Assembly: GCA_030540195.1 (NCBI GenBank)
Contig: JAUNWT010000004.1
Coordinates: 1-64,000 of the forward strand
DNA length: 64,000 bases
Direction: 5' to 3'
DNA from: Bacillota bacterium
Lineage (GTDB): Bacteria; Bacillota_I; Bacilli_A; Erysipelotrichales; Coprobacillaceae
The notes beneath the pieces are model-generated. The model did no database searches, was not told the origin of the DNA, and saw only the letters and a program-made list of their open reading frames with translations. Every line of letters starts with the position of its first letter. Within the stretch, counting starts at the first letter, position 1. Below, piece after piece: positions 24,195 through 25,756 of this stretch. The translations under genes and the position numbers were made by a program.

Positions 24195-24223
24195 ATTGTA
24201 CTAAATTTGATACACAAAAACAA
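24195..24223 (-). promoter_or_regulatory. ackA promoter (sigma-A type)
   Basis: TTGTTT (24218-24223, minus) and TACAAT (24195-24200) are 17 bp apart. I see no convincing CcpA (cre) site beside it. Confidence 0.55.
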
Positions 24224-24262
24224 TAAAACTAGGAGAAATTCCATAAAAAATGTAACCACTTA

Positions 24263-24291
24263 CAAAAAAGAATAGTTTTTACACTATTCTT
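24263..24291 (-). terminator. spore protein gene terminator
   Basis: AAGAATAGT (24269-24277) and ACTATTCTT (24283-24291) form a perfect 9-bp stem with a 5-nt loop at the stop codon, followed by T residues on the minus strand. Confidence 0.8.
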
Positions 24292-24500
24292 TATTTATTA
24301 TATGAAGAACGAGACATTTGTTCTTGTCCCATTTTAACTAATCTTTTAGTGATTTCTCCACCAACAGAACCGTTAGCTCTAGCAGTTGTATCAGGACCTA
24401 AATTAACACCAAATTCATTCGCAATTTCATATTTCATTTGGTCAATCGCATTTTGAGCTCCTGGTACAACTAATCTATTACTGTTATTACTTTGTGCCAT
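24291..24500 (-). CDS. alpha/beta-type small acid-soluble spore protein
   Basis: Coats and protects DNA in the dormant spore and supplies amino acids at germination. The 69 residues show both family signatures: [10 protein letters not shown], with the GPR protease cleavage site, and [22 protein letters not shown] for DNA binding. It marks the organism as a spore-former. It stands alone with its own terminator, and the AGGAGGTGA ribosome site is very strong. A likely forespore promoter and a hairpin lie upstream. Confidence 0.97.
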
Positions 24501-24511
24501 CTTGTGTCACC

Positions 24512-24538
24512 TCCTGACACTTTTATTTTGTGTCAGGA
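24512..24538 (-). promoter_or_regulatory. hairpin that would cover the spore protein ribosome site
   Basis: TCCTGACAC (24538-24530 on minus) and GTGTCAGGA (24520-24512) form a perfect 9-bp stem with a 9-nt loop. The GGA of the 3' arm is part of the AGGAGGTGA ribosome site, so folding would partly hide it. Confidence 0.6.
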
Positions 24539-24553
24539 TACAAAAACTATACG
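24524..24553 (-). promoter_or_regulatory. candidate sigma-G promoter of the spore protein gene
   Basis: CGTATA (24548-24553, minus) and CAAAATA (24524-24530) are 17 bp apart. They fit the forespore sigma-G pattern (GHATR, CATWMTA) at all -35 positions and at six of seven -10 positions. Position upstream of a spore protein gene supports this. Confidence 0.45.
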
Positions 24554-24559
24554 CTCTTT

Positions 24560-25756
24560 TTAAAAAATATCTTCATCATTTTTATAAGAGTTATCAACAA
24601 CGATTGTTTCAACTGTTTCAACACATTCATCAACTAATGTATCAAAATCAAATGTTTCTTCAAAAGCGACTGCTTTATAACTTTTTGGTTTTGTTGCAGG
24701 TGCTTTAGGTGTAAAAATTGTACAACAATCTTCATGAGGACGAATTGAAATATCATATGTATTGATTTTTTGAGCAATATCAATAATTTCTAATTTATCA
24801 AGACATAAAACAGGTCTTAATACAGGAATAGAAATAACTTCATTAATAACATTCATACTATCTAATGTTTGTGAAGCAACTTGCCCAATACTTTCCCCAT
24901 TAACTAACGCTAAACAATGATTTTTACGCGCTAATTTTTCACCAATACGATACATCATTCTACGCATAACAGTCATTGCATAGCTTTCATCACAATGGTC
25001 ATAAACAGCGAGTTGTAATTTTGTAAAGTTGACAACATGTACCGTAATTTGACCATGTGTATAATGACGTAATTGATCTACTAAATCGAAAACTTTTTCT
25101 CTAGCAAATTCATTTGTATAAGGCGGTGCAGCAAAGTGAACACATTCAATATCCACACCACGTTTTAAAGTTAAATAACCCGCTACCGGCGAATCAATTC
25201 CACCTGACAACATTAAAAGTGCTTTTCCACCAATTCCAACTGGATAACCACCTGCACCTTTGATGACATTTGTCATAACATACATGGCATCATGTCTAAT
25301 TTCAACCGTAACCAGCATTTCTGGATTGTGGACATCGACTTTTAAAGGACGAGCAACATGATGGAAAACATGTCCAGCAATTTCTCTGTTGATATCTTGC
25401 GATTTTTTAGGGTATGTTTTATCACTACGTTTTGTGTTGATTTTAAATGTTGTTTTTGTATCATCATTGATCATTTGCGCAATGGCATCTTTGACAACAT
25501 CTAAATCTTTTGGAAATTTATAAGCATTTGAAAATGAATGAATTCCAAAAACTGTTTTTAATTTTTCATTTACCGCTAAATGATCTGCCCCGTTTAAATA
25601 AATATAAAGACGATCATACTGTAATTGATATTGAAGTTGAGGAAATTCAAAAAGAATTTCCTTTGTATTTTTTAATAACTTTTGTGTAAATAATTTTCTA
25701 TTTTTTCCTTTTGTTGTGAGTTCACCAAAACGAACAACAATATAATTTGCTTCCAT
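24560..25756 (-). CDS. thiI: tRNA 4-thiouridine synthetase ThiI
   Basis: Adenylates and thiolates U8 of tRNA. At 398 residues it has the ferredoxin-like and THUMP domains (residues 1-~165) and the AANH ATP-pyrophosphatase domain with the loop LLMLSGGIDSPVAGYL near residue 185 and HCLALVNGESIGQVASQTL. The C-terminal rhodanese domain of enterobacterial ThiI is missing, as is normal in Firmicutes, so it serves tRNA thiolation and takes sulfur from the adjacent desulfurase. It starts 3 bp after that gene. Confidence 0.96.
   Translation of the reverse strand: MEANYIVVRFGELTTKGKNRKLFTQKLLKNTKEILFEFPQLQYQLQYDRLYIYLNGADHLAVNEKLKTVFGIHSFSNAYKFPKDLDVVKDAIAQMINDDTKTTFKINTKRSDKTYPKKSQDINREIAGHVFHHVARPLKVDVHNPEMLVTVEIRHDAMYVMTNVIKGAGGYPVGIGGKALLMLSGGIDSPVAGYLTLKRGVDIECVHFAAPPYTNEFAREKVFDLVDQLRHYTHGQITVHVVNFTKLQLAVYDHCDESYAMTVMRRMMYRIGEKLARKNHCLALVNGESIGQVASQTLDSMNVINEVISIPVLRPVLCLDKLEIIDIAQKINTYDISIRPHEDCCTIFTPKAPATKPKSYKAVAFEETFDFDTLVDECVETVETIVVDNSYKNDEDIF

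Follow-up and report, generated by a model that had tools for sequence, protein, structure and literature searches.

A putative read-through lock on the ribosome site of an alpha/beta SASP gene that follows thiI

Hairpins at the ribosome site have been described for the phage T4 late genes I-TevI, I-TevII, I-TevIII and segB, for mobE of phage Aeh1, and also for soc and e (PMC2988022). In T4, RNA made from an early or middle promoter folds and hides the ribosome site, whilst the late promoter is placed such that late RNA cannot fold (PMC2988022). In Bacillus subtilis, the forespore gene sigG (spoIIIG) lies behind a co-directional operon (PspoIIG), and a hairpin of 20 or more pairs has been proposed to keep the read-through RNA from being translated; this hairpin cannot form in RNA from PsigG, and the own mRNA of sigG carries a separate 5-bp hairpin at the ribosome-binding site (RBS) (PMC5942855). 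The main alpha/beta SASPs are called products of multiple monocistronic genes in a review (PMC8999374). Here an alpha/beta SASP gene is described that also lies within reach of thiI transcription, in a window of 64,000 nucleotides (the whole stretch of DNA that was analysed). As computed, the locus resembles the T4 late-gene hairpins in that RNA from upstream hides the ribosome site, and RNA from the gene's own promoter would, by promoter geometry, be without the folding sequence; it differs in having a forespore sigma factor of bacteria and a housekeeping gene as neighbour, where T4 has phage genes and late promoters, and in that the arms vary between families. It is like sigG in being a forespore gene behind a co-directional gene, with a hairpin predicted for read-through RNA only. 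The sigG case, however, concerns one gene whose upstream operon is itself a sporulation operon, whereas at the SASP locus the upstream gene is housekeeping, the product coats DNA and the fit of arm to leader extends across families. No description of a read-through lock on ssp genes was found in the open-licence literature, most subscription journals being outside its coverage; such a lock belongs to a mechanistic kind that is known, and its description for SASP genes is apparently new with respect to the papers searched.

The genes and signals at the locus are as follows.
24560 to 25756, minus strand: thiI, putative source of read-through RNA (PF02568, ThiI_fer and THUMP)
24507 to 24515, minus strand: Shine-Dalgarno (SD) sequence AGGAGGTGA (from sequence)
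24291 to 24500, minus strand: alpha/beta SASP gene of 69 aa (open reading frame; PF00269 at 78.3 bits, cut-off 22)
24264 to 24295, minus strand: inverted repeat and T run past the SASP stop, candidate terminator of a shared RNA (arms 92% complementary)

The product exceeds the PF00269 cut-off and belongs among the alpha/beta SASPs. Its neighbours on the minus strand of the window are a class-V aminotransferase gene and thiI on one side and an acetate kinase gene on the other, and we take thiI-sspA to be the gene order in B. subtilis. Between the end of thiI (24560) and the SASP start codon (A at 24500) lie 59 nt, which contain GTATA, a 17-nt spacer, CAAAATA and GTGTCAGGAGGTGACACAAG, followed by ATG. 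A terminator scan of this gap on the minus strand found no terminator-like element; the candidate at 24264-24295 is weak because the same kind of scan did not list it. Searching 24200-24800 against Rfam 15 gave 4 matches with E≤1, all far under the gathering scores, and hence no known RNA family. When the leader GTGTCAGGAGGTGA was sought in its own genome with up to 2 mismatches, 8 matches were obtained (4 in the backwards control), of which the one exact match was the SASP gene and one with a single mismatch had no evident gene start beside it.

The initial annotation had described a perfect 9-bp hairpin over part of the SD, and that description is borne out.
24530 to 24538, minus strand: 5' arm TCCTGACAC (pattern search, shuffles and folding)
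24521 to 24529, minus strand: loop AAAATAAAA (pattern search and folding)
24512 to 24520, minus strand: 3' arm GTGTCAGGA, which takes in AGGA of the SD (pattern search and folding)

The hairpin TCCTGACAC-N9-GTGTCAGGA (24512-24538, minus strand) is real: its two 9-nt arms pair perfectly, the 27-nt element occurs once in the window by pattern search, and a match to it within 3 mismatches was found in 0 of 100 shuffles of the window. Inverted repeats of this length are common in themselves, 154 of at least 9 nt with copies within 40 nt being present in the window; by comparison, when the stretch preceding the SD was mononucleotide-shuffled 20,000 times, a hairpin covering at least 3 nt of the SD arose once. 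Folding of 24470-24570 on the minus strand yields the hairpin (MFE -19.0, z -2.84), with 3 of 200 shuffles equally stable. Of the window's 49 SD-bearing open reading frames, it is the SASP gene that shows the greatest excess in SD-opening cost (z 16.6, with p 0.016 being the minimum attainable with 60 shuffles); the next had a z of 2.1, and p≤0.05 was reached in 4 of the 49. The whole SD-to-AUG stretch of this gene was not significant against shuffles (z 1.2, p 0.13; 0.06 in another run), and with the full intergenic gap the p values were 0.033 for the SD nonamer and 0.13 for SD-to-AUG.

The promoter features overlap this structure.
24548 to 24552, minus strand: sigma-G-like -35 GTATA, with a 17-nt spacer to the -10 (sequence and motif scan)
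24524 to 24530, minus strand: sigma-G-like -10 CAAAATA (motif scan; aligns with CATTCTA of Bacillus SASP leaders)
24516 to 24518, minus strand: predicted forespore transcription start, 6-8 nt past the -10 (from promoter geometry)

As proposed earlier, the candidate -10 lies in the loop and upper stem: CAAAATA (24530-24524) occupies most of the loop and the last pair of the 5' arm. The -35 and -10 stand at the proper spacing for a sigma-G-type promoter, judged against what we take to be the sigma-G consensus, which was used for all promoter motifs. The predicted start falls within the 3' arm of the hairpin. The computed cost of opening AGGAGG was 7.8 kcal/mol for RNA that begins at the thiI stop, rising to 7.9 kcal/mol when 200 nt of thiI were included, compared with 1.7-2.2 kcal/mol for RNAs starting at 24516-24523; these predictions agree with the claim that read-through RNA would be blocked and short RNA open, and they place the RBS in sequestered form in the long upstream RNA, as in T4. 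Opening of the whole SD-to-AUG stretch cost 11.3 kcal/mol in the long RNA versus 2.7-7.5 in the short ones, varying with the start, and the mean unpaired probability of AGGAGGTGA was 0.25 in read-through RNA versus 0.57-0.63. The start codon in the window is not hidden (unpaired 0.55 in RNA from the thiI stop, about 0.50 in short RNAs).

A read-through lock is probably the best explanation of the hairpin, and the mechanism that the initial annotation had put forward is supported and extended by the results given here, its function being read from sequence and predicted folding. In growing cells, thiI RNA would run past the gap that has no terminator-like element and into the SASP gene; in this RNA, the transcribed sigma-G promoter stretch would fold onto the SASP leader and hide the SD, which may block ribosomes in the cell. 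The start codon would also be hidden in about half of relatives, little above chance. In the forespore, sigma-G RNA polymerase would start just ahead of the SD, at the predicted place, and because of this position the forespore mRNA would be without the 5' arm and accessible to ribosomes. The switch would thus be the position of the promoter, with no ligand, and we infer its purpose to be that no DNA-coating protein is made in growing cells. If so, the gene for a growth-stopping DNA-coating protein would be tolerable within reach of a housekeeping transcript, and ssp RNA-seq coverage in growing cells need not equal expression.

Occlusion was then compared across 248 SASP loci from two samples. 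Sample 1 was drawn evenly from the window's class, in which 89 of 395 genomes matched and loci came from 79 of the 89; it left out 8 of the 11 genomes of f21 and G286 and G402 of f12 (f1, f12 and the like are working labels for families), and only part of the SASP copies of multi-copy genomes were included. Sample 2 consisted of named Bacillaceae and MAGs, the best 80 of 569 relatives. From 333 HMM hits, 249 loci were retained on requiring a usable SD start and a 60-nt leader stretch not shared with another locus, and removal of loci that contained N or were short of upstream DNA brought the number to 248. An SspA sequence used as query in a search for B. subtilis matched in 44 of 392 genomes, all of the window's class. 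thiI was located by a profile made from the loci's own ThiI sequences, and a locus was termed thiI-adjacent when at most 250 nt separated the thiI stop from the SD (observed 39-222). Since a scan of 48 nt upstream misses the long-range arms of f17 and f6, the occlusion score used the full gap, with its upstream part dinucleotide-shuffled 60 times per locus, so single-locus p values are coarse.

The SD-to-AUG stretch was over-occluded (p≤0.05) at 75 of 125 thiI-adjacent loci; the figure was 11 of 34 for further copies and 7 of 89 for loci with no thiI found, a class in which many loci have only about 700-1500 nt of upstream DNA (adjacent versus no thiI found, Fisher 5e-16). After thinning by genus, the figures were 55/87 adjacent versus 4/40 (9e-9). 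Amongst loci with the same promoter-to-SD geometry, 59/86 versus 13/53 were occluded (6e-7), a contrast that is weaker on genus thinning (42/63 versus 6/17). The thiI-adjacent kind was the more occluded in 18 of the 21 genera having both kinds, and in Thomasclavelia all 8 two-copy comparisons had the thiI-adjacent copy as the more occluded one (11.1-18.6 versus 2.8-9.6 kcal/mol), 7 of which are pairs within one genome and the eighth of which, L034 versus L009, uses L034 for L035, a locus of L009's genome with an identical leader. At least 6 nt of the SD were paired upstream at 103/125 adjacent loci (56.8 expected on shuffling), 21/34 further copies and 31/89 others, and 2 or more nt of the start codon at 67/125 adjacent loci versus 51.3 expected. 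On the SD-to-AUG measure 50 of the 125 adjacent loci fell short of p≤0.05, 37 reached it on neither measure, and 19 lay above 0.1 on both; f6 was mostly negative (2/12 occluded). Occlusion was also seen at loci that are not thiI-adjacent, namely L018, the second copies in L011 and L012, and several f9 copies. In f9 (L138, L147, L151 and L215), tandem SASP copies lie behind thiI, and some further copies are strongly occluded and others not, with no rule found; the L147 copy 379 nt past thiI has an SD z of 4.3.

A sigma-G-type promoter motif was present at 89 of the 125 thiI-adjacent loci (2.1 expected). One alternative to the lock is that no structure is selected, the conserved -10 (CACAAAMTA) and the leader being partly complementary by chance. 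The two elements are each conserved for other reasons and, as set out below, form no consensus helix, and when the -35 and -10 were held fixed in the shuffles 10 of 22 adjacent f12 loci stayed significant versus 18 of 22 unfixed, so that the -10 itself accounts for some of the signal in f12. With the same elements fixed (48-nt version), however, p≤0.05 was kept at 24/28 f1, 12/20 Bacillales and 9/17 MAG adjacent loci, and the matched promoters elsewhere without the effect, the swap tests described below and the 1 in 20,000 shuffles also argue against chance, making this reading unlikely.

Over the full stretch to the SD, a terminator-like element was found at 1 of 125 adjacent loci (0.8 expected), the lone case being L159, which is not occluded, and a scan ending 38 nt short of the SD found none in the 125. 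Such elements lay ahead of the SD in 19/34 further copies (0.4 expected) and 14/89 others (0.8 expected). As terminators are nearly absent at adjacent loci, thiI RNA should enter the SASP gene there, and further copies are more often shielded. Within the further copies, a relation of terminator to occlusion found no support (median z 1.09 with and -0.01 without).

In f1, the family of the window, the gene is present in 33 of 43 genomes, with the leader GTGTCAGGAGGTGA almost invariant and the left arm variable. Across 28 thiI-adjacent f1 rows, 81.7% of the cells of the 9-pair stem were paired versus 36-58% in slid controls. The changes were one-sided and mostly C-G to U-G, with no two-sided change and an almost invariant 3' arm, and RNAalifold returned no consensus occluding helix for the 28 f1 rows and no occluding hairpin for 14 of the 20 Bacillales rows. 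The exact stem is therefore not a conserved column structure; the helix seems to shift register between loci. Complementarity in relatives, as the initial annotation had it, is thus kept only partly as regards the exact stem, whilst occlusion itself is kept, in f1 often reaching past the core stem, and because other lineages attain it with other arms, column-by-column conservation is the wrong test. The same changes bear on the alternative that the inverted repeat is a DNA operator, on which a dimeric forespore regulator such as SpoVT would sit over the -10 and start site. In the window, a perfect palindrome has its centre between the -10 and the start, and TGACAC half-sites occur 3 times in 24504-24536; yet the one-sided f1 changes mostly preserve RNA pairing and break the DNA palindrome, which is not kept in relatives, where sequence and place differ.

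Given the apparent shift of register, an alignment-free swap test was used in place of column-wise covariation, in which the mean opening cost of native upstream arm-leader pairs was compared with that of arms exchanged among relatives. Native pairs were the costlier to open in f1 (n=28; 12.07 versus 10.84 swapped, p 6.5e-4), f12 with MAGs (26 of 39 drawn; 10.21 versus 8.15, p 5e-5), Bacillales (n=20; 14.06 versus 10.22, p 5e-5), f17 with f6 (n=23; 9.30 versus 7.32, p 5e-5) and f9 (n=8; 14.30 versus 12.61, p 0.04), where 5e-5 is the smallest possible value and all p values are rough because the statistics ignore kinship. Controls away from thiI (26 rows drawn each) gave p 0.105 for Bacillales and p 0.113 for f13. 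As an example of the fit, L093 (Anoxybacillus flavithermus) has CCATTTGTTTT facing AAAACAAATGG, where 7 of the 20 Bacillales rows carry CCATGTG facing CACATGG. The fit is reached by different means. Of the adjacent loci, 88 are significant on at least one measure. Their SD finds its partner within the spacer or -35 in f1 (20/24), at the -10 box in f12 (16/19), Bacillales (12/15) and f9 (4/4), and upstream of the promoter in f17 (4/6). In f12 it is the -10 (TCACATTCT) that pairs with the SD (AGGAGGTGA); in Bacillales the spacer GCCATGTG is able to pair with CACATGGC at the start codon; in L150 and L158 of f17 the far-upstream TTCTTTTCACCTC pairs with GAGGTGAAAAGAA. As the arms differ by lineage, the lock appears to have been rebuilt time after time, and such turnover of arm sequence and place favours selection on the RNA outcome over a DNA operator. 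Since, in addition, the arms fit their own leaders and occlusion tracks thiI adjacency, an operator is highly improbable.

A further alternative, in which the hairpin would protect the 3' part of thiI RNA, or serve termination or processing, with the SD covered as a by-product of the short gap, is likewise most improbable. thiI is without a terminator of its own, and a stem 22 nt past its stop could protect it; however, an intrinsic-terminator test on the stem found no U run on the coding strand, where GGTGACAC comes next, the arm tracks the leader in the swap test, and in f17, with gaps of about 120 nt (L150 and L158), an arm just past thiI nevertheless pairs with both the SD and the start codon.

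For the read-through lock, these results would mean that selection acts on the RNA outcome and not on sequence, a single result being reached through many unrelated arms. Tentatively, and with rather less than even confidence, the lock may be one instance of a general rule by which forespore genes that lie behind other genes are leak-proofed, in which promoter DNA would be dual-coded as -35/-10 and as an anti-Shine-Dalgarno arm, the -10 box itself being the arm in several families (e.g. CACATTCTA); the thiI-SASP lock would persist while its sequence is rebuilt, and sigG behind a sigE-like gene would be a possible second case. Eleven sigma-G-like loci (L257, L259, L260, L261, L265, L270, L271, L277, L280, L281 and L282) were scored for read-through occlusion of SD and start, 19 of 30 being unscorable, and 6 of the 11 were occluded at p≤0.05 (40 shuffles). 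Ten of the 11 genes lie 29-57 nt behind another open frame, sigE-like by partial hits; L261 is doubtful (gap 180, TTG start). The occlusion at these loci may reflect either hairpin of B. subtilis sigG, the read-through one or that at the RBS.

Folding also gave a second structure, absent from the initial annotation and mutually exclusive with the occluding hairpin.
24504 to 24520, minus strand: alternative hairpin GTGTCA-GGAGG-TGACAC, whose loop holds the SD (folding; arm co-change in L005)

It can form in RNAs that begin at 24520 or above, and could be the functional structure, stabilising the 5' end of the forespore mRNA or serving it as a display element. The arms co-change in L005, of the window's genus, and similar palindromes occur in f13 leaders. 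Such a role, however, requires a start earlier than predicted, the SD-to-AUG opening cost then rises to 7.5, only TCA/TGA are left in other f1 genera, and the link to thiI would stay unexplained, so this reading is very unlikely beside the read-through lock. On the plus strand, the complement of the display hairpin (24504-24520), GTGTCACCTCCTGACAC followed by TTTTATTTTG, resembles an intrinsic terminator for an antisense RNA. The co-change in L005 turns GTGTCA/TGACAC into TTGTCA/TGACAA, and the occluding stem there loses its innermost pair. In L141, L146, L155 and L223 of f13, the SD lies in the loop of a palindrome, e.g. GATTGTC-AGGAGGT-GACAATC, with TTTGTCG upstream, and the f13 genomes with such leaders have about seven SASP copies each.
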